This document shows, in pieces, positions 22,722-44,085 of a DNA stretch of 48,308 nucleotides; positions within the stretch are counted from its first letter, which is position 1, and each line of letters begins with the position of its first letter. Source of the stretch: Bacteroidota bacterium (GTDB taxonomy: Bacteria; Bacteroidota; Ignavibacteria; Ignavibacteriales; Ignavibacteriaceae); contig JAKAKL010000034.1 in NCBI GenBank assembly GCA_021824565.1, positions 1 to 48,308 on the forward strand, in the 5' to 3' direction. A program made the translations under genes and the position numbers. The notes beneath the pieces are model-generated. The model was not told the DNA's origin. It ran no database searches and saw only the letters and a program-made list of their open reading frames with translations.

Positions 22722-24980
22722 TTAACTTTTTTCTAATTTTGCTCTTCTTAAAAGAAGAGAATTGGAAACAACACTTACCGAACTAAAAGCCATAGCCGCT
22801 GCTGCATAAATTGGATTAAGAAACCCTAAAGCAGCAACAGGAATTCCGATAATATTATAGATGAAAGCCCAAAATAAATTCTGCTTTATTGTCTTCATTG
22901 TTTTCCGAGATAGCCGGATTGTACGCACGATTCCTATAAGATCCCCGCTGATAACAGCAATATCGGAAGTCTCTATAGCAACATCCGTTCCTGTGCCGAT
23001 TGCAATTCCCACATCTGCTGCCGCCAATGCAGGTGAATCATTTATGCCGTCTCCAACCATTGCTGCAAATTTTCCCGCACTTTGAATTCCCTTAACATGC
23101 ATAACTTTATCCTGTGGCAAAACCTCTGCAATTACTTTTTCAATTCCTGCTTGACTGGCTATCGCCTTTGCCGTTCTTTCATTATCGCCTGTTATCATAA
23201 TTATATCAAGCGACATTTTTTTTAATTGCTCTATTGCGCTTTTTGACGACGGCAAAATTGTATCGGCAATTGCAGTAATACCGATTAATTTTCCATCGCT
23301 TGCAACAAAGACAGGTGTTTTTCCTTCTTTCGATAATCTTTCCGAAATTTCGTTCGTACCATTTATACTAATAGAATGCTCTTTCATTAACGATTCATTA
23401 CCAACAATTATGCTGCGCAAATTGACTTTTCCTATTACTCCAAAGCCTGTTAATGAACTAAACGATTCTACGTTTTCCAATGAAATATTTTTCTTTTTTG
23501 CATAATCAACAATAGCCTGACCAAGCGGATGCTCGGATTTATTTTCAATTGAAGCCGCTGTTTTTATGAGATCGTCTTCATTGCTTCCGTTAAGCGCAAT
23601 CACGTTGGTCACTGAAGGTTTGCCCGAAGTAATTGTTCCGGTTTTGTCAAACACAACTGTATTTATTTTATATGCGTTCTCTAAACTTTCTGCATTCTTA
23701 ATTAATATCCCATTTGAAGCGCCCAATCCGCTTCCAACCATTATTGCCGTTGGAGTTGCTAAGCCCAATGCACACGGGCAAGCTATTACCAGCACAGCAA
23801 TAAAATTTATCATTGCAGAGGTAAAAGAGACACCTGCGGCAAAGTACCACATCAAAAAAGTTATTAAAGCAATTCCAATAACGACTGGCACAAACACCGA
23901 AGCAATCCTATCTGCCGTACTTTGTATAGGCGCTTTTGATCCTTGTGCCTTCTCAACCATTTTTACTATCTGCGAAATAAATGTATCTCTGCCAACCGCC
24001 GTAGTTTTAAATTCAATACTGCCGTTTTTATTTATGGTTCCCCCAATTACTTTATCACTTACATTTTTATCGATAGGAAAACTTTCGCCTGTTACCATTG
24101 ACTCATCAATTGAAGTCGTACCTTTTATTATTATTCCGTCTGTTGGTATCTTTTCTCCAGGTCTTACAATAACCGTTTCATTAACTAAGAGATCTTTGAC
24201 CGGTACATCCAATTCTATATCGTTCCTAACGACGCGTGCAGTCTTCGGTTGAAGCTTTATTAATTCTTTTATTGCCGAAGATGTTTTTTCTTTTGCCTTG
24301 GCTTCTAAAAGTTTTCCCATCAATATTAAAGTGATAATAGTCGTAGCGGTATCAAAATAAATATGCTCGCCCGTATTCGAAATCGAAAGCAGTTTAGGGA
24401 AAAGCACTGCGGAAGTACTGTATACATAAGCGGTACCGGTGCCGACCGCAACAAGTGTATTCATATCCGCAGAAAAATGTTTTAGTAGTTTCCACGCAGC
24501 GGAAAAAAATCTTTTTCCCGGAATGAACATTACCAGTGTAGCAGCAAGAAATAAAAGCCGGTCAATATATTCCGGAGCCAGCGGGCTCATAGTTTGAAAC
24601 CAGCGAGTCATGTCGACCATGCTAATAAACATCACCGGGACACTAATTATAGCTGCAAAAATAAATTCACGCCAAAGATGCAAATATGTTTTTTTTCTGC
24701 TTTCTTCTTCGCGTGAGTTAACTTCAATATCTTCAGCAGCAGATATAATTACATCTTTTGTTGGAAGAATAAGCTTATAACCTGCTACCTCTACAGCTTC
24801 AGAAAGTTTTGCTTCGCTCACAGCTTTAGAGTCGAATGAAAGTGTTACTTTTTCAGTAGCGATGTTTACATTCACGTCGGAAACGCCTTCCAATTTTTTT
24901 AATGCTTTTTCAACGCGGACGACACAGCTTGCACAAGTCATTCCTTCAACCGGAAGAGTTAGCGTTTTAATTTCCATCAT
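22722..24980 (-). CDS. copA: Copper-transporting P-type ATPase
   Basis: CopA exports Cu(I) across the inner membrane at the cost of ATP. In order: one HMA domain with GMTCASC (Cys16, Cys19), eight membrane segments, the copper-site CPC at 401-403, the phosphorylation motif with Asp445 in DKTGT, HPLGQA for nucleotide binding, and GDGINDSPAL. The 752-residue length is normal for a single-HMA CopA. The HMA protein gene lies 30 bases upstream, then the HMA-AraC regulator. These three form the copper module. Confidence 0.96.
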   Translation of the reverse strand: MMEIKTLTLPVEGMTCASCVVRVEKALKKLEGVSDVNVNIATEKVTLSFDSKAVSEAKLSEAVEVAGYKLILPTKDVIISAAEDIEVNSREEESRKKTYLHLWREFIFAAIISVPVMFISMVDMTRWFQTMSPLAPEYIDRLLFLAATLVMFIPGKRFFSAAWKLLKHFSADMNTLVAVGTGTAYVYSTSAVLFPKLLSISNTGEHIYFDTATTIITLILMGKLLEAKAKEKTSSAIKELIKLQPKTARVVRNDIELDVPVKDLLVNETVIVRPGEKIPTDGIIIKGTTSIDESMVTGESFPIDKNVSDKVIGGTINKNGSIEFKTTAVGRDTFISQIVKMVEKAQGSKAPIQSTADRIASVFVPVVIGIALITFLMWYFAAGVSFTSAMINFIAVLVIACPCALGLATPTAIMVGSGLGASNGILIKNAESLENAYKINTVVFDKTGTITSGKPSVTNVIALNGSNEDDLIKTAASIENKSEHPLGQAIVDYAKKKNISLENVESFSSLTGFGVIGKVNLRSIIVGNESLMKEHSISINGTNEISERLSKEGKTPVFVASDGKLIGITAIADTILPSSKSAIEQLKKMSLDIIMITGDNERTAKAIASQAGIEKVIAEVLPQDKVMHVKGIQSAGKFAAMVGDGINDSPALAAADVGIAIGTGTDVAIETSDIAVISGDLIGIVRTIRLSRKTMKTIKQNLFWAFIYNIIGIPVAALGFLNPIYAAAAMAFSSVSVVSNSLLLRRAKLEKS

Positions 24981-36679: not shown

Positions 36680-37393
36680 TTAAGAATGAGCGTTTTCTTC
36701 TCCGGGCAATTGGTAATTCGAGAGTTTCTTTTTATGAGCTATGATTTCGGCATCGACTAAAAAGATTACATCCTCGGAAATATTCGTAGCGTGGTCGGCA
36801 AGCCGTTCTATTTGGCGCGCTAGAACTATTAAGTGAGAGCATACTTCGGCAAGCGTAGGATTTGCTTGAATCATCTCAACTAATTGTTTAAATATTTTTT
36901 TATTATAGTCGTCAACAATATCATCTTTCTTCCAGATTGTCTTGGCAATCTCCACGTCGCTGTTGATGAATGAAGTGATAGCATCTTTCACCATTTCACG
37001 AGCTATTTTAGCCATTTCCGGCAAATCGGTTTGTGTGATAATGTCTCTAAAGTTGTCTGTCTTCTTTATTCTCTGAACAATATTAACTGCAATATCGCCG
37101 CAGCGTTCAAGCTGGCTGTCTATTTTTATCGCTGTAAGTATATAACGGAGGTCGGATGCAACAGGTTGATATAATGCAAGCAGACTTTCACATTGAGCCA
37201 TAATCAGGTTGTCGTAAGCATCAACTTCCCTGTCTCGGTGCTTTATGTCCTTAAACAATCTTACTTCAGCATGTTCCATATCCTTAAAGCTGTTCTCTAC
37301 CTGTTCGTCAACAATAGACGCCATTTTATTAATGGTAGTCTTTAATTCATCAAGCTCTTTTTCAAAATGTCTTTCCATTTTTTTATCCTTCAA
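36680..37393 (-). CDS. phoU: Phosphate regulator PhoU
   Basis: PhoU links the Pst transporter to PhoR and represses the phosphate regulon when phosphate is enough. It is made of two three-helix bundles, and the repeated signature is visible: KDIKHRDREVDAYDNLI in the first half and WKKDDIVDDYNKKIF in the second. The 237-residue length is standard. It is the last gene of the pst module, 107 bases after the pstB stop; this gap contains an ACTTGA hexamer repeat. No phoR or phoB was seen in the window. Confidence 0.95.
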   Translation of the reverse strand: MKDKKMERHFEKELDELKTTINKMASIVDEQVENSFKDMEHAEVRLFKDIKHRDREVDAYDNLIMAQCESLLALYQPVASDLRYILTAIKIDSQLERCGDIAVNIVQRIKKTDNFRDIITQTDLPEMAKIAREMVKDAITSFINSDVEIAKTIWKKDDIVDDYNKKIFKQLVEMIQANPTLAEVCSHLIVLARQIERLADHATNISEDVIFLVDAEIIAHKKKLSNYQLPGEENAHS

Positions 37394-37500: not shown

Positions 37501-38316
37501 TTATCCGAATCTTCCTGTAATATAATCTTCAGTTTGTTTTTTCCCGGGAGCAACAAACATTTTTTTAGTTTCAGAATATTCTACTAATTCTCCCATATAA
37601 AAGAATGCAGTGTAGTCGCTGACTCTTGCAGCTTGCTGCATGTTATGGGTTACAATAACTATGGTATAATCTTTCTTGAGTTCAAAAATAAGTTCTTCAA
37701 TTTTTGTCGTAGAAATAGGATCGAGCGCGCTTGCAGGCTCGTCCATTAAGATAACTTCAGGATTAACCGCAATTGTTCTGGCGATACATAAGCGCTGCTG
37801 CTGTCCTCCGGAGATGTTTGCTCCGGAATCGTTCAAGTGATCTTTAACTTCATCCCAAAGCGCAGCTTGCTTTAAACTTTTCTCAACAATTTCTTTCAGC
37901 TTTTTTCTATTTCGAAATCCGTTCAGCTTTAATCCTGCTACCACATTATTTGCAATTGACATTGTCGGAAAGGGATTAGGCTTTTGAAATACCATGCCAA
38001 TTTTTTTTCTTATCAATACCGGATCGGTATCCATTACGTTCTCACCGTCAAGAGTAATTGAGCCTGTTATCTTGCCTCCGACAACTTCATGCATCCTGTT
38101 TATGCAGCGCAAGAACGTTGATTTGCCGCAGCCTGAAGGACCAATAATAGCGATTACTTTTTTCTCCGGGATATCAAGGTTTATATTTTTTAAGACTTTG
38201 TTCTTTCCAAAATATGCCTCAAGATTTTTTACGGATATCTTAATGTTATTAACTTCTTCGGCATAATGCCGCACGTTCGTTTCAATCATGCTTTGTGTAT
38301 CTATTTCAACTGTCAT
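37501..38316 (-). CDS. pstB: Phosphate ABC transporter ATP-binding protein
   Basis: PstB is the ATPase of the high-affinity phosphate importer. Walker [10 protein letters not shown], the signature [15 protein letters not shown] and Walker [13 protein letters not shown] are in place, and the ending DYITGRFG is typical. A TTG at 38322 gives six more bases, but I prefer the ATG at 38316 (MTVEIDTQS). It follows pstA by about 20 bases. The length of about 271 residues fits. Confidence 0.96.
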
Positions 38317-38335
38317 AACCAAAAATGCCTATTTC

Positions 38336-39199
38336 TCAAACTTTATATTTTGATCTTGTTATTATTCTAAATATTAAACTTAAAACTGAAATTAATAAAA
38401 TTAAAACTAAAGCCGCCGTCCATGCTTGATCATTCCAGTCTTTAAATGGAGCTGTAGAATATTCATAAATGTAAACGGTAAGCGAAGCCATCGGCTGGAA
38501 AACATTAGTAGACCAGAATCTATTGCCGAGCGCTGTAAACAGCAGCGGCGCCGTTTCTCCCGCGGCTCTCGAAAGCCCTAATAAAATTCCTGTCGCAATT
38601 CCTTTCCACGCTGTCTTTAGAATTATTAAAACGGTAGTTTTCCATTTGGGAATACCAAGCGCAAGTCCTGCTTCTCTATAAGATTGAGGAACAAGCTTTA
38701 TCATTTCTTCGGTAGTGCGCGTTATTGTCGGGATCATTAATATTGCAAGAGCAACTCCGCCTGCAAATGCTGAAAAATGTTTCATCGGAAGAACCACAAG
38801 TGTATATGCTACTACGCCGACAACAATCGACGGCACTCCGCTTAACACATCTGTAAGAAACCGAACCAACGAGCCAAATTTATTATGACCGAATTCGGAT
38901 AAATATGTTCCTGACATAATCCCAACAGGTATTCCAATCGCACCGCCGATTCCAACTAAGATTAATGTTCCTACGATAGCGTTTACCATACCGCCGCCTG
39001 GTTCTCCAATTGGAGTCGGAAGTTTAGTAAAAAAATTTAAGTTCAGATGGTCAATCCCTTTGGAGATTGTATAATAAAATACAAATATTAACGGCACCAA
39101 CGCTAATAATGCCGACAGAAAAGATAAAGACAGCATTATTACATTGGTAATTTTTCTTCTGTATAAGGATATTTTATTTAAGCCGGATTTGATTTCCAT
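38336..39199 (-). CDS. pstA: Phosphate ABC transporter permease PstA
   Basis: PstA forms the inner-membrane channel with PstC. Six membrane segments and the cytosolic EAA loop (SYREAGLALGIPKWKTTVLI) that contacts PstB are seen. A GTG at 39217 also starts this frame; I chose the ATG at 39199 (MEIKSG), which overlaps the pstC end by 22 bases. With about 287 residues it is full length. Confidence 0.94.
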   Translation of the reverse strand: MEIKSGLNKISLYRRKITNVIMLSLSFLSALLALVPLIFVFYYTISKGIDHLNLNFFTKLPTPIGEPGGGMVNAIVGTLILVGIGGAIGIPVGIMSGTYLSEFGHNKFGSLVRFLTDVLSGVPSIVVGVVAYTLVVLPMKHFSAFAGGVALAILMIPTITRTTEEMIKLVPQSYREAGLALGIPKWKTTVLIILKTAWKGIATGILLGLSRAAGETAPLLFTALGNRFWSTNVFQPMASLTVYIYEYSTAPFKDWNDQAWTAALVLILLISVLSLIFRIITRSKYKV

Positions 39200-40185
39200 T
39201 TTCTTTCCGTACTCCACACGAGCAAACGTGCAAGAATATTTATCAAAATTGTAATTACAAATAATACAAGCGCAAGTTCAATAAGCGCATTTAAATATAA
39301 ATCTGAAGTCGCTTCGGTAAACTCGTTGGCAAGCACACTTGCCATTGTGTAAGAAGGATCCAAAAGCGAAGCCGATATTTGAGGTCTGTTCCCTATAACC
39401 ATTGTTACCGCCATCGTCTCGCCGATCGCCCTCCCAAGTCCAAGCATTATCGCACCAAGCAAACCGGACTTTGCGTTGCCCAAAACTATTTTTGTAACCT
39501 CCCATTTTGTTGCTCCCAGCGCATAAGCAGCTTCTCTTTGTGTGTTTGGCACAGACTTTAAAATGTCTCTTGAGATCGAAGAAATTATCGGCAGCACCAT
39601 TATTGAAAGAATTACTGCCGCCGCAAGCATACCAAATCCATACGGCGCTCCTTGAAATAAAGGTGAGTTTGGAAAAGTATTTTGAAGTAATGGTTCAACA
39701 TTATCTCTTAACCATGGGACTAAAACAAATATTCCCCATAATCCGTATATTACGCTAGGAACTCCGGCTAATAGTTCGGTTAAAAATGAAAGCGGCTTTT
39801 CAAGCCACCCCGGTGCAATCTCTGAAAGAAATACCGCAACTGCAATCCCAAGCGGAACAGCGATAAGCAATCCAAGCAGTGAAGATACTATTGTACCATA
39901 AATTATCGGCAAAGCGCCGAATACTTCGTTAAACGGATCCCAAACTGAAGTTACTAAAAAATGGAAGCCGAATTTTTTAATCGACAATATGGAGTGCGAA
40001 TACATTTCCCACGCCATAAATAAAACTAAAAGAAAGACTAACATCGCAAAAAGCAATGTTAGTCTTTCAAAAATAAAATCTCCCAGATTATTATTTCCAA
40101 GTAGTTTCTTTATGAATGCAGAAGTTTTAGTTCTCTTATTTCTTTTTTCAAAATATTCTTTTGTTAATTCAGCATTTTCATTCAT
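39178..40185 (-). CDS. pstC: Phosphate ABC transporter permease PstC
   Basis: PstC pairs with PstA in the inner membrane. It has six membrane segments after a 40-residue charged N-terminus, and the EAA loop NTQREAAYALGATKWEVTKIVL is near residue 220. The LLGLGRAIGETMAVTMVIGN-type segment follows as usual. Its 335-residue length is normal. pstS lies 24 bases upstream and pstA overlaps its end, so they are co-transcribed. Confidence 0.95.
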   Translation of the reverse strand: MNENAELTKEYFEKRNKRTKTSAFIKKLLGNNNLGDFIFERLTLLFAMLVFLLVLFMAWEMYSHSILSIKKFGFHFLVTSVWDPFNEVFGALPIIYGTIVSSLLGLLIAVPLGIAVAVFLSEIAPGWLEKPLSFLTELLAGVPSVIYGLWGIFVLVPWLRDNVEPLLQNTFPNSPLFQGAPYGFGMLAAAVILSIMVLPIISSISRDILKSVPNTQREAAYALGATKWEVTKIVLGNAKSGLLGAIMLGLGRAIGETMAVTMVIGNRPQISASLLDPSYTMASVLANEFTEATSDLYLNALIELALVLFVITILINILARLLVWSTERKWKSNPA

Positions 40186-40209: not shown

Positions 40210-41256
40210 TTATTTAATTTTTTTACCGTTGCTGGTTATCATTGCTATCTTTTCCAGATCCAATTTCTGAACCGGCTTCGGAAGCGGAGCATAATAAAGA
40301 CTTGTAGCATCGTTCTGACCTTTTGTTACAGCCCACTTTAAGAACTTAACAAGAGATTCAGCGTGTGAATAATCTTTAATATCCTTAGGAACAACAATCC
40401 ATGAGAATCCGCAAATAGGATAAGAATTTTTTCCATCTGCATTAGTAATAACTGCGCGAAGATCGCTCGGCATGTGTTTAGCCGCGCCTGCAGCTGCTTC
40501 AGAAACTGTGTTAAAATTTACGTCAATAAAATTTCCCGCTTTATTCTTCATAGCACAATAAGGCAAATTGTTTTGCTTAGCATAAGCTAATTCTATGTAG
40601 CCGATTGCGCCTTGTGTCTGAGCAATAATTCCAGCAACTCCTTCGGTACCCTTAGCTCCAAGCCCGACTGGCCAGTTTACCGAAATGCTGTTGCCGACTT
40701 TCTTTGCCCATTCCGGGCTGACTTTTGACAAGTAGCTTGTAAATATAAATGTCGTTCCGCTGCCTTCTGAACGGTGTGCGACGAGTATTGCTTTGTTAGG
40801 AAGATTTCTGCCTGGATTTAATTTTACAAGTCTTGGGTCATTCCATTTTGTTATTTTTCCAAGATAAATATCCGCAAGAGTTTCGCCATCAAGCTTAATT
40901 CCTTGACCAACTGATGGTAAATTATAAGTAATGGCAACTCCGCCCATAATTATTGGAAGGTGAACAACATCAGTACCTCTTTTGGATTTAAATGTATTCA
41001 TCTGCTCTTCTGTTAATGGAGCATCGGAAGCGCCGAAATCTACAGTACCGGCTGTTAGCTGCTGAATACCGCCGCCGCTGCCGATTGAAGCATAATTAAT
41101 TTGTGTGCCTGTCATCTTGTTATATGTATCGAACCATTTTGAAAAGATCGGGTAATCAAAGGTTGAACCGGCACCCGTTAATCTCATCTGTGCAAATGAC
41201 GTCATCGAAAAAGCCGCAGCAATCATTAATGCTGTCGAAAAAATTTTGAATTTCAT
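40210..41256 (-). CDS. pstS: Phosphate-binding protein PstS
   Basis: PstS is the periplasmic phosphate-binding subunit of the Pst importer. A signal peptide (ends SMTSFAQ) is followed by LTGAGSTFDYPIFSKWF, the phosphate-contacting NYASIGSGGGI, FGASDAPL, HRSEGSGTTFIFTSYL and a PICGFSWIVVPKDI segment. It has 348 residues and no lipobox, so it is probably free in the periplasm. It lies between the porin gene, 43 bases upstream, and pstC. Confidence 0.96.
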   Translation of the reverse strand: MKFKIFSTALMIAAAFSMTSFAQMRLTGAGSTFDYPIFSKWFDTYNKMTGTQINYASIGSGGGIQQLTAGTVDFGASDAPLTEEQMNTFKSKRGTDVVHLPIIMGGVAITYNLPSVGQGIKLDGETLADIYLGKITKWNDPRLVKLNPGRNLPNKAILVAHRSEGSGTTFIFTSYLSKVSPEWAKKVGNSISVNWPVGLGAKGTEGVAGIIAQTQGAIGYIELAYAKQNNLPYCAMKNKAGNFIDVNFNTVSEAAAGAAKHMPSDLRAVITNADGKNSYPICGFSWIVVPKDIKDYSHAESLVKFLKWAVTKGQNDATSLYYAPLPKPVQKLDLEKIAMITSNGKKIK

Positions 41257-41299: not shown

Positions 41300-42334
41300 T
41301 TAGAAACTTATGTAAAATGTAACACGTGCAAGTAAATCCGCAGTAGAATTGGAGTTGCCAAATGATACGGATTCAATGTTCGGCATAAAGTGAACATTCT
41401 TCTCAACGTTCCAATCTAAAGCGCCCATAATTAAACTTTGGGTAGCGAGTGCATAAGTTGAGTTCTTTGTTGACGCGTCAGTCGGCACGTAATTATCAAA
41501 CCTTCCAACAAGACGTAATTTATCCATAAGTGCAACCCATCCATTTAAGCTGAAACCGCTTTTTTGAACTGTCCCTGCGCCTGTACTTACTCCATTTACA
41601 AAATATTGACCGCCTAAGCTGAATGAGCTGTTTGCGTAGTTAACAATTACATCACCAACTCTATTATTAAGTCCGGCGGCTCCCGTGTTGTATTGTCCGT
41701 TCAGTAATATTGTAAATTCTTTTACCGGGTTGTATTGTAAATATAAATAGGCTGCTTTATACTTGTTTCCTGGTACGCTGTTGCCGCTGTTATTACCTAC
41801 CAGCAGTCCGGCTTTAAATTGACTTGAGAAAACTTGATTAAATGAAACGCCAAGATCTCTTGATGCTGAAATTCCATGTAAATCTTCGATAGTTTTTTCT
41901 ATCGGTCTATATCCAAATATTCCTTCTGCCATATTGATTTGAGGCGTTCCCTGGAGACCAATAATAATATTACCGCCTTCAGTAACATTTTTCCAGTTAA
42001 TAAAAGCATCCTTAATCATGGTTGAGAGTTTACCGTTGCCAAGATTAGATGCGCTTGGATCTGATTCAAAGCGAAACTGTGCAGTGAAATCAGGTGCTAT
42101 GTCGTATGCAGTTGTTAGATAGATACGTCTGTAATCAAATGCGCCCATGCTTTTCTGCAATTGTCCTGCAACTCCGTAAGTCGAAGTTGGATTTGTCGTA
42201 TTGCTGTTATCGTGATTCAGGACGTAATAATAGTCACCGAAAAACAATCCGCTGAATGTAGGTCCTTTACTCTGCGCATTGGCAAAGCCAGCGAACATCA
42301 TTAAAGCAAGGAAAAGTATTGATAAGTTTTTCAT
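41300..42334 (-). CDS. Outer-membrane porin, probably phosphate-selective
   Basis: The protein has a signal peptide (MKNLSILFLALMMFAGFANA) and a 320-residue body with alternating beta-strand patterns and a C-terminal RVTFYISF, the aromatic end expected for an outer-membrane barrel. It is the first gene of the pst module, directly before pstS, so passage of phosphate over the outer membrane is a sound inference. OprP/OprO-like porins share the role but the sequence similarity could not be judged. A Pho-box-like array lies 101-139 bases upstream. Confidence 0.85.
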   Translation of the reverse strand: MKNLSILFLALMMFAGFANAQSKGPTFSGLFFGDYYYVLNHDNSNTTNPTSTYGVAGQLQKSMGAFDYRRIYLTTAYDIAPDFTAQFRFESDPSASNLGNGKLSTMIKDAFINWKNVTEGGNIIIGLQGTPQINMAEGIFGYRPIEKTIEDLHGISASRDLGVSFNQVFSSQFKAGLLVGNNSGNSVPGNKYKAAYLYLQYNPVKEFTILLNGQYNTGAAGLNNRVGDVIVNYANSSFSLGGQYFVNGVSTGAGTVQKSGFSLNGWVALMDKLRLVGRFDNYVPTDASTKNSTYALATQSLIMGALDWNVEKNVHFMPNIESVSFGNSNSTADLLARVTFYISF

Positions 42335-42434
42335 ATTTCTTTCTTTTATTTGTTATTGGATAGTTGATTAATTTTATTCTGGTTAAAAAATAGAAAATTG
42401 ATGCGGTAATAATAGAGAGAAAATTATTTCTGTA

Positions 42435-42473
42435 TGTTAATGGAAGGTTACGCTTATATTAAGAAATTGTTAA
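42435..42473 (-). promoter_or_regulatory. Pho-box-like array: four TTAACA-type repeats with 11-bp period
   Basis: On the minus strand four hexamers TTAACA, TTAATA, GTAACC and TTAACA lie at 42468-42473, 42457-42462, 42446-42451 and 42435-42440, each exactly 11 bp apart (6+5). This is the spacing and motif of PhoP/PhoB-type boxes (TTAACA-N5, as in Bacillus). It lies upstream of the porin-pst-phoU genes. Binding is inferred. Confidence 0.65.
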
Positions 42474-42503
42474 GCGCCTGATAACCCTTTCTTAATAAAA
42501 AAG

Positions 42504-42536
42504 AAAAGCTGCCTCAATATTACCGAAGCAGCTTTT
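42504..42536 (-). terminator. Rho-independent terminator after the outer-membrane protein gene
   Basis: The arms AAAAGCTGC (42504-42512) and GCAGCTTTT (42528-42536) pair perfectly, and CTTTTTTATT follows on the minus strand. It separates the OMP transcript from the porin-pst promoter region. Confidence 0.85.
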
Positions 42537-42571
42537 TAGATTGTCCTAATTCATTCAACGTCTCACATGAA

Positions 42572-42625
42572 ACTTGAGCCAAAACTTGAACTTGAACTTA
42601 AACTTACACTTGAACTTGAACTTTT
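42572..42625. repeat. ACTTGA-type hexamer tandem repeat
   Basis: Seven consecutive hexamers run from 42584 to 42625: ACTTGA, ACTTGA, ACTTAA, ACTTAC, ACTTGA, ACTTGA, ACTTTT; a partial ACTTGAG precedes them at 42572. The array starts just after the OMP stop codon, so it is in the 3' untranslated part before the terminator. A shorter copy lies at 37424-37453. Confidence 0.75.
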
Positions 42626-42628
42626 ATT

Positions 42629-43996
42629 TTACTGTCCAAGATTAAAAGGATAAATAAAAGATACCTTAGGCTCAATTCTCTTTTGCGGCTGATAAGCTAC
42701 AATATTGCTGTTAGCGTCTCTAATAGGCGCCCATGTCCAGTTATAAAGCATCGAAACCAATAAGTAAGGAAGCGGTTTGTATCCGAATTCAAAATACATA
42801 TATGAATTGTTGTCTACCTTAAATAATTGGGATTCGGCTCCGATATTTATCTTATCATATCCTCCGCGAACAACCACCGGCATTTCCTGCGGAGAAACAT
42901 TCGCGACAAGATGAAGTTCCCCGCTGTTAGGAGTTTTATCGAGCCGCTGATAACTGCCGATTATATCCAGCAAACCAAGAAAATGCAGATCTAATTCTCC
43001 GAAATATCCGTTATCAGGATCTGTCATGCTGGCAAGTAAGTTTGCTTTGCTTGAAAAAGTTCCGGTTGCGGTATCATACTGGTATCTCTGAATTTCATAA
43101 AGAGAATTAAAGTATGATGGAATATACTGTGCCTTGTTAAATCTTCTTTCGAGCTTTGCGGATGCATTTAAAATTCCAAGCCCGTTCAGATCAAGCATTA
43201 TTCCCGTGGCAACCCCGCTGCCGTAGTTTATTATTTTAGAATAATCCGAGTACAATTCCAGATTAACAATACTCGAATGAACAATAGGCAAGCCTATGTC
43301 AACTCCTGCTATTTGCATTCTGCCTTTATCCACTTGCTGAAGATATGCATAACTTGCCAAGGGTGGTGGGTTATTAACCATAACTAGTTCAGATATTATT
43401 CCCGAATACTTGTTAAAATCTACGGCATAAGAAGCGCCAATTTCTAAATCACTAATTATGGGTACTTCAGCTAAAGCAGACCGCAGCGGTCTTACATAAA
43501 CTCTTGCCGCTGTGAGACCGGCTTCTCCAAATGTGCTGTATATTGATTCAAAGCCCGCGCTGCCGAAATCTATGTCCGCCACAAGCCCGATCTTTCTTGT
43601 ATCGATGCTCGGACTGTTGTTGTATTGATCCACAATTGTTCCGTGTCCAAGTGTGTAATAATCCAGCGCGCCAAGTTTTATATAAACAGGGTCATGTTTT
43701 TCCCCGTACCGGATATAGCGGATAATGCTGAGATAATCCGACAGTTCGTTAAAATCTTCTTTACGAATATTCCCGTTTTTATTTATGTTGAAATTTAAAT
43801 CCAGACCCATTCCCCAGTTGCCGAGAGAAAGTTCAGGCATGATCCGGACATTGTAATAAAGCTCGCCGTCAATCCAGTTTAATCCAAGCCCGCCGTCAAG
43901 CACGCCTTCGCCGGGTTTAGGATATAGTGGCGGTTCTTGAGAATATATCGGCTTAATAATGAATACAAAAAGGAACAGAAGAAAAAGCTTTTTCAT
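42629..43996 (-). CDS. Outer-membrane beta-barrel protein, unknown function
   Basis: The frame extends back to 44053, but the ATG at 43996 has AAAGGA about 7 bases upstream and yields a proper signal peptide (MKKLFLLFLFVFIIKPIYSQ), so I chose it (455 residues). The mature part is rich in amphipathic strand patterns with aromatic girdle residues, as in outer-membrane proteins, and ends FIYPFNLGQ. An acidic GKIxxEDF-like segment near residue 85-90 is not conclusive. No family was recognised. It is convergent-free and co-directional with the two T9SS proteins upstream, 33 bases after the small one. Confidence 0.7.
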   Translation of the reverse strand: MKKLFLLFLFVFIIKPIYSQEPPLYPKPGEGVLDGGLGLNWIDGELYYNVRIMPELSLGNWGMGLDLNFNINKNGNIRKEDFNELSDYLSIIRYIRYGEKHDPVYIKLGALDYYTLGHGTIVDQYNNSPSIDTRKIGLVADIDFGSAGFESIYSTFGEAGLTAARVYVRPLRSALAEVPIISDLEIGASYAVDFNKYSGIISELVMVNNPPPLASYAYLQQVDKGRMQIAGVDIGLPIVHSSIVNLELYSDYSKIINYGSGVATGIMLDLNGLGILNASAKLERRFNKAQYIPSYFNSLYEIQRYQYDTATGTFSSKANLLASMTDPDNGYFGELDLHFLGLLDIIGSYQRLDKTPNSGELHLVANVSPQEMPVVVRGGYDKINIGAESQLFKVDNNSYMYFEFGYKPLPYLLVSMLYNWTWAPIRDANSNIVAYQPQKRIEPKVSFIYPFNLGQ

Positions 43997-44085
43997 ATAT
44001 ACATCCTTTAAAAAATTGATGTACGAATATAGTAAAATATTTTTCAAGATCACGTACTTTTAGTCGCTAATTAATTGAGGAGCAA

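Follow-up and report, generated by a model that had tools for sequence, protein, structure and literature searches.

Conserved 11-bp repeats upstream of a porin-pstSCAB-phoU operon in Ignavibacteriaceae: a predicted Pho box in register with a TAnnTTTG promoter element

The window analyzed here, i.e. the whole stretch of 48,308 nucleotides from an Ignavibacteriaceae genome, carries a porin gene followed by pstS, pstC, pstA, pstB, and phoU (Table 1). This gene order, with a repeat array ahead of it, had been proposed in a preliminary description of the sequence and holds; the pst and phoU genes pass their NCBIfam cut-offs. The first gene of the operon matched no Pfam or NCBIfam family and no PDB sequence. 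Its structure model (30 aligned sequences, mean pLDDT 83.7) is a beta barrel, with the anion-selective porin 1e54 as top PDB match and the phosphate-specific porin OprP (2o4v) in 16th place. Judged by this predicted fold, operon gene 1 is a porin barrel. Although it lacks a Pfam or NCBIfam family, 80 loci in named genomes carry a relative.

The gene upstream of the array (42629-44053) had no Pfam match; by eye, a protein resembling its product also precedes the array at two further loci (L185 and L186). Between this gene and its terminator, an imperfect hexanucleotide tandem repeat of AACTTG-like units was noted (42571-42624).

Table 1. Features of the porin-pstSCAB-phoU locus and its upstream region, in positions of the window
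Feature	Position	Strand	Basis
Outer-membrane porin, operon gene 1	41300..42334	-	alignment to relatives, predicted fold
pstS	40210..41256	-	TIGR00975 above cut-off
pstC	39178..40185	-	TIGR02138 above cut-off
pstA	38336..39217	-	TIGR00974 above cut-off
pstB	37501..38322	-	TIGR00972 above cut-off
phoU	36680..37393	-	TIGR02135 above cut-off
Intrinsic terminator of upstream gene, ends immediately before array	42504..42536	-	terminator scan, fold z -3.81
Weaker upstream unit TTAAGA, in phase	42490..42495	-	sequence reading and relatives
Weaker upstream unit TTATCA, in phase	42479..42484	-	sequence reading and relatives
Array unit 1, TTAACA then ATTTC, best conserved unit	42468..42473	-	sequence reading and relatives
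Array unit 2, TTAATA	42457..42462	-	sequence reading and relatives
Array unit 3, GTAACC, poor match	42446..42451	-	sequence reading and relatives
Array unit 4, TTAACA, closest to promoter	42435..42440	-	sequence reading and relatives
Likely -7/-10 element TATTATTA, 26 nt after start of unit 4 (hexamer TATTAT)	42407..42414	-	register of group

Read 5′ to 3′ on the minus strand, the array runs TTAAGA-TTATCA-TTAACA-TTAATA-GTAACC-TTAACA, with units starting at 42495, 42484, 42473, 42462, 42451, and 42440, i.e. in steps of 11 bp. The four TTAACA-like hexamers previously described at 42435-42473 are present, the third of them (GTAACC) being a poor match. The count of four stands as such, but the array extends further than had been described, comprising up to six units when the two weaker ones reaching 42495 are included. 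Tandem direct repeats with an 11-bp period, as in Pho boxes, thus characterize the array. A three-unit TTAACA pattern (at most three mismatches) matched four times in the window, always inside the array, compared with a mean of 0.21 and a maximum of two matches in 100 shuffles. The upstream half of the array (42454-42500) doubles as an imperfect inverted repeat with 19-nt arms that are 84% complementary.

A PstS match at E ≤ 0.001 was found in 34 of the 61 genomes of the family. The orthologous set was restricted to 13 strong PstS matches with upstream sequence, counting the genome under study; 11 of these loci are headed by a porin gene and two (G038 and G023) by pstS. One genome in which the porin runs off the contig (G043) and genomes with PstS matches of E 1e-9 or weaker were excluded. 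Alignment of the upstream regions, a check suggested in the preliminary description, revealed the four-unit array at all 13 loci, with scores of 20-24 out of 24 against 13-17 for the best off-phase reading of the same stretch and strand. The loci share the core TTAACA-ATTTC-TTAACA. In the 12 aligned relatives, the ATTT directly after unit 1 is invariant, and the A following TTAAC is invariant in unit 1 and kept in at least 90% of cases in unit 2. With a profile derived from these 12 relatives (window omitted), the window array scored 32.3 bits, corresponding to a whole-genome E-value of 4.7e-7, while the runner-up reached 14.6 bits (E 0.19). The array is real: shuffles, profile E-value, and conservation all rule against chance.

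To see which genes follow such arrays, 97 related genomes were scanned with TTAACA-N5-TTAACA-N5-TTAACA, allowing at most one mismatch. The pattern matched 130 times in 60 genomes, against 17 matches of the backward control (the control was summed by hand), and the 130 matches merged to 91 arrays. At least 25 of the 91 lie on the same strand as a pst permease gene and less than 6 kb ahead of it, where approximately 0.08 would be expected if 1.2 pst loci are assumed per 3.9-Mb genome; this count includes one permease below the cut-off (G036:C82), without which it is 24. At least three further arrays lie near a pst permease gene on the opposite strand. For the other 66 arrays, no pst permease was present less than 6 kb downstream on the same strand among the matches listed.

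Thirty arrays were read together with their flanks, and 27 of them have a gene directly downstream. These genes comprise (i) 14 phosphate genes, namely eight for porins (assigned by alignment, except L091 by eye), two for PstS, two for phosphonate-binding proteins, one for a Na/Pi cotransporter, and one for a PhoU-like DUF47 protein; (ii) eight genes for TonB-dependent receptors carrying a CarboxypepD-like domain, whose link to phosphate is indirect; and (iii) five others, encoding a glycosyltransferase, an RpiR-type regulator, an M16 peptidase, and two proteins without family. We tie the TonB receptors to phosphate because at L197 and L199 the array-bearing receptor gene leads a cluster containing a porin gene and pstS (by Pfam for L199). 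Receptors of this type with a CarboxypepD-like domain recurrently carry a Pho-type promoter (L197, L199, L358, L359, and others). At L195 the array precedes an apparent phosphonate transporter (by eye), and at L180 it has a divergent response regulator/kinase pair on one side and, on the other, an outer-membrane-type gene without family that is followed by a PstS-like gene. Some arrays stand ahead of genes without a known phosphate link, encoding an RpiR regulator, an M16 peptidase, a histidine kinase, or a TetR protein. The search for TTAACA repeats near phosphate genes that the preliminary description had proposed thus came out in its favor, with arrays leaning strongly to such genes across the 97 relatives. 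A conserved position upstream of pst and other phosphate genes is a further trait shared with Pho boxes.

The distance between the array and the promoter was analyzed as well. A TATAAT-like hexamer was scored across 20 promoters of porin-pst or pst operons and peaked at exactly +26, counted from where the last unit begins (mean 2.09, best other offset -1.34); 15 of the 20 reached a score of at least 2. The five promoters without it were those of G023, of G018, which has its element at +15, and of G016, G042, and G061 (where the automatic pick of the last unit overshot). This peak had first suggested a sigma-70-like promoter, which was dropped, as the wider set fits TAnnTTTG at +15 or +26 better. 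TAnnTTTG is the -7 element of Bacteroidota sigma-A promoters; in Flavobacterium psychrophilum it spans -12 to -5 (PMC9723704, in excerpt). Among 48 distinct arrays (L085-L114 and L180-L199, chosen regardless of TAnnTTTG, with TA plus at least three of TTTG counted as a match), the element stood at +15 in 21 and at +26 in nine, the remaining 35 offsets together accounting for 10. These two positions therefore held 30 of the 40 occurrences over 37 offsets (8 to 44), compared with a mean of 1.0 and a maximum of six in 2000 shuffles of the tails, in a test that was defined after some of these promoters had been inspected by eye. A near-identical set of 50 arrays gave 23 at +15, nine at +26, and 10 elsewhere. 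At 77 of the 80 porin-bearing named loci there was enough upstream sequence; a four-unit score of at least 21 was reached in 32 on the coding strand versus nine on the opposite strand, and TAnnTTTG occurred at +15 in 21, at +26 in 10, and elsewhere in 14 (i.e. 31 of 45 at the two positions), in genomes that partly overlap the earlier sets.

The offset of +26 equals +15 plus 11, i.e. one helical turn, and the last unit occupies about the place of a -33 element, in two positions one turn apart. In the window, the -7 candidate TATTATTA is a weak match to TAnnTTTG. A fixed position beside a -10/-7 element is found in Pho boxes as well; the spacing of the present arrays differs from that described for E. 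coli. This geometry, the fixed distance between array and TAnnTTTG as observed in the genomes compared, is the main new result.

Repeats and promoter element were combined into the composite pattern TTAACA-N5-TTAACA-N9-TAnnTTTG, which, with at most one mismatch, matched 94 times in 69 of 395 genomes of the phylum, versus 17 times for the backward control (summed by hand). At 30 composite loci that were read, the downstream gene encoded a DUF47/PhoU_div protein in nine cases, PstS in four, a metallophosphoesterase in one, a TonB receptor in one, and other proteins in 10, with none in reach in five (L305 and L318 were assigned by eye). All 14 exact matches were read as well; they precede genes for five DUF47 proteins, one PstS-like protein, one pst-operon head, one 5′-nucleotidase, one protein of the Phosphoesterase family, three TonB receptors, one histidine kinase, and one TetR protein. 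In a genus of another class (g104, 61 genomes), the exact composite with Y for C gave 17 matches against one in the control, and all 17 precede DUF47 (11) or PstS (six) genes; since they trace back to a single genus and to two promoters conserved there, they do not count as 17 independent events. Genes of this genus were assigned by Pfam for L326 and L328 and otherwise by eye, L331 and L340 being the same sequence in one genome, with the gene start read. PhoU-like DUF47 genes with the composite promoter shortly before the start codon were observed in other families of the phylum (L301, L314, L317-L323, L325-L327, L331-L333, L335, and L337-L340).

The same repeats stand at a fixed promoter distance before phosphate genes elsewhere in what is very probably the Bacteroidota. 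We consider it likely that a Pho promoter of the form (TTAACA-N5)n-TTAACA-N9-TAnnTTTG exists throughout this phylum, in which PhoB repeats would replace the -33 element in two positions one helical turn apart and would control genes for pst systems, PhoU-like (DUF47) proteins, phosphatases, phosphonate uptake, and TonB receptors.

In the genome under study, the profile yielded 31 matches, and the neighbors of 30 were inspected; the window array alone was significant. Two weaker matches were nevertheless retained. The first (C34:15253-15292; 11.4 bits, E 1.9, 19th) has four in-phase units ahead of a gene for a calcineurin-like metallophosphoesterase (PF00149/PF12850), its location and its recurrence across the genus being the reasons for keeping it: among 10 metallophosphoesterase upstream regions, seven begin the array with TTAAC(A/G)ATTT, two are weaker, and one, that of a second copy in G031, lacks an array. 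Those seven arrays have a TAnnTTTG-like element (three or four of TTTG) at +15, as judged by eye. The second (C34:24054-24109; match at 24070, 14th) has four units and was retained for its -7 element, TACTTTTA at +15. The gene that follows shows a weak CDP-glycerol glycerophosphotransferase (Glyphos_transf-like) match and is the first of a glycan-biosynthesis cluster; possibly, this array marks a phosphate-controlled surface glycan. Matches on C56 and C114 were inspected and found without support.

Loose versions of the patterns are common in this AT-rich genome and show no enrichment: TTAAYA in three units with three mismatches gave 223 matches versus 319 for the backward control, and the loose composite gave 15 versus 16. 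Since real matches did not exceed the control in these scans, no large regulon is claimed for the genome itself. The same numbers are what would be expected if the repeats were a chance product or by-product of AT-rich intergenic DNA. Conservation, the profile E-value, the backward controls, the association with phosphate genes, and the constant spacing between array and -7 element all speak against such an origin, and we regard its probability as negligible.

The preliminary description had postulated a PhoB-like regulator encoded outside the window, and a PhoB/PhoR-like pair is indeed present there, at scores below the curated cut-offs. The best PhoB-like protein (G000:C17:25276-25962; L145:5277-5963, minus strand) is encoded by a gene that overlaps one for a histidine kinase (L145:4259-5284, minus strand). 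Against NCBIfam models, the regulator scored 232.1 bits for Bacteroides PhoB (cut-off 270), 230.5 for YycF, and 223.2 for PhoB, and the kinase 299.7 for PnpS (cut-off 400) and 256.7 for PhoR (cut-off 334.2). Both candidates therefore score best on models of the PhoB/PhoR type, yet under every listed cut-off. In the effector domain of the PhoB candidate, DRTVDVHIR is identical to E. coli PhoB, most of this stretch being common to other members of the family; the top matches in structural databases are other OmpR-family regulators. The candidate has matches at E 1e-60 in 83 of the 97 relatives. Regulator and array occur together in 56 relatives, the regulator alone in 27, the array alone in four, and neither in 10, a moderate co-occurrence (Fisher p 0.008, kinship ignored).

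The nearly equal scores on the YycF and Bacteroides PhoB models, the presence of at least seven full-length OmpR-type regulators in the genome, and the arrays preceding TonB receptors and a few non-phosphate genes would also fit another OmpR-family regulator (e.g. a WalR/YycF-like or envelope regulator) that binds the 11-bp repeats and happens to control phosphate genes. We consider this unlikely, as the gene content behind the arrays leans to phosphate (pst proximity, PstS, phosphonate-binding, Na/Pi, DUF47, and 5′-nucleotidase genes) and every exact match in g104 precedes pstS or a DUF47 gene. In addition, the response regulator divergent from the array at L180 is 49% identical to the PhoB candidate.

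On this evidence, the window array is very likely a Pho box, i.e. a head-to-tail operator of the PhoB type that would switch on porin-pstSCAB-phoU at low phosphate. The reading draws on the phased array, its conservation, its gene association, the promoter register, and the PhoB/PhoR-like pair. A Pho box could alternatively act mainly as a repressor site on a constitutive promoter, since a regulator bound so near the -7 element could in principle hinder the polymerase. The last unit, however, lies about at the -33 position, in two places one turn apart, and a scan of 42250-42700 revealed no promoter of the sigma-70 consensus, although the average in shuffles is just 1.5. The pst operons of known Pho regulons are, moreover, activated (PMC4415409, in excerpt), which together makes a repressor site very improbable. 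For the Pho box as an activator site, the following course can be proposed. Upon phosphate shortage, the PhoR-like kinase would phosphorylate PhoB, as in known Pho regulons. PhoB would then stack head-to-tail on the 11-bp repeats along one face of the helix, as their period and the known behavior of PhoB suggest, and would bring RNA polymerase carrying the housekeeping sigma factor to the -7 element, which begins 15 or 26 nt beyond the point where the last repeat starts. By contacting the sigma subunit near the -33 position, again by analogy with known Pho regulons, it would switch on the operon. The window promoter would use the +26 register.

In Bacillus subtilis, the PhoP box consists of TTAACA-type repeats with a period of about 11 bp and free 5-bp spacers. 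The array resembles it in the TTAACA hexamer, the 11-bp period, and the control of pst, which is predicted here. In contrast to the Bacillus box, ATTTC or ATTCC makes up most of the spacers that separate two perfect units, and TAnnTTTG follows downstream at +15 or +26. Of the Bacillus motif TTAACA-N5 invoked in the preliminary description, the hexamers are matched; the first spacer is not free, given the invariant ATTT after unit 1 in the 12 aligned relatives.

Further comparisons are based on excerpts of the cited papers. It is well established that Pho boxes are built of 11-bp units whose sequence varies by lineage (PMC4415409). The cyanobacterial SphR box is composed of CTTAACCT 8-mers with a 3-bp linker and shares with the array a TTAAC core, tandem 11-bp units, and pst genes downstream (PMC1906773). 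It differs in that an A follows TTAAC in units 1 and 2 of the array, without CCT, and it belongs to another phylum and another regulator. Because TTAAC-type boxes occur in cyanobacteria too, 'Bacillus-like' is just one comparison among others. The E. coli Pho box is CTGTCAT (PMC4415409; PMC1906773) and is described as lying 10 bp upstream of the -10 element (PMC1906773). Common to both are 11-bp head-to-tail units beside a -10 element and, in the candidate PhoB, the DRTVDVHIR stretch; in contrast, no TGTCA occurs in the units of the window array, and an 8-bp box would here sit 8 bp (or 19 bp) from TAnnTTTG.

Closer to the present organism, PhoB of Bacteroides fragilis gel-shifts a 512-bp pstC promoter fragment and is required for pstC expression (PMC3547664); the available text on this promoter contains neither 'consensus' nor 'TTAA' nor 'direct repeat'. 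In marine bacteria, one of the strains being a flavobacterium, plcP clusters have been reported to carry putative Pho boxes before the gene of a phosphate-starvation phosphoesterase; the excerpts do not give the motif (PMC4796936). The response of Flavobacterium johnsoniae to phosphate depletion involves phosphate-regulated TonB transporters, a pf12850 PlcP, and a PhoBR operon, in all of which it resembles the genes described here (PMC8115612); in the main text, as far as available, 'pho box' and 'promoter' are not mentioned. Among the open-access matches listed, including these three papers, no Pho box sequence stated for Bacteroidota was found in the excerpts. For this reason we set the array apart from known Pho boxes, as a predicted operator of the Pho-box kind with its own unit and spacer sequence and its own promoter register, to which PhoB is expected to bind.

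With a defined box and a set spacing to the -7 element, Pho promoters could be searched for by a model, and regulon members such as TonB receptors, PhoU-like proteins, and metallophosphoesterases may be predicted in uncultured Ignavibacteria. The register would offer a simple helical-phase test of how PhoB recruits a polymerase working on TAnnTTTG promoters. A puzzle also arises: the candidate PhoB shares DRTVDVHIR with its E. coli counterpart, but the box reads TTAACA instead of CTGTCA. If the phylum-wide Pho promoter holds true, phosphate regulons would become readable from sequence across the Bacteroidota.
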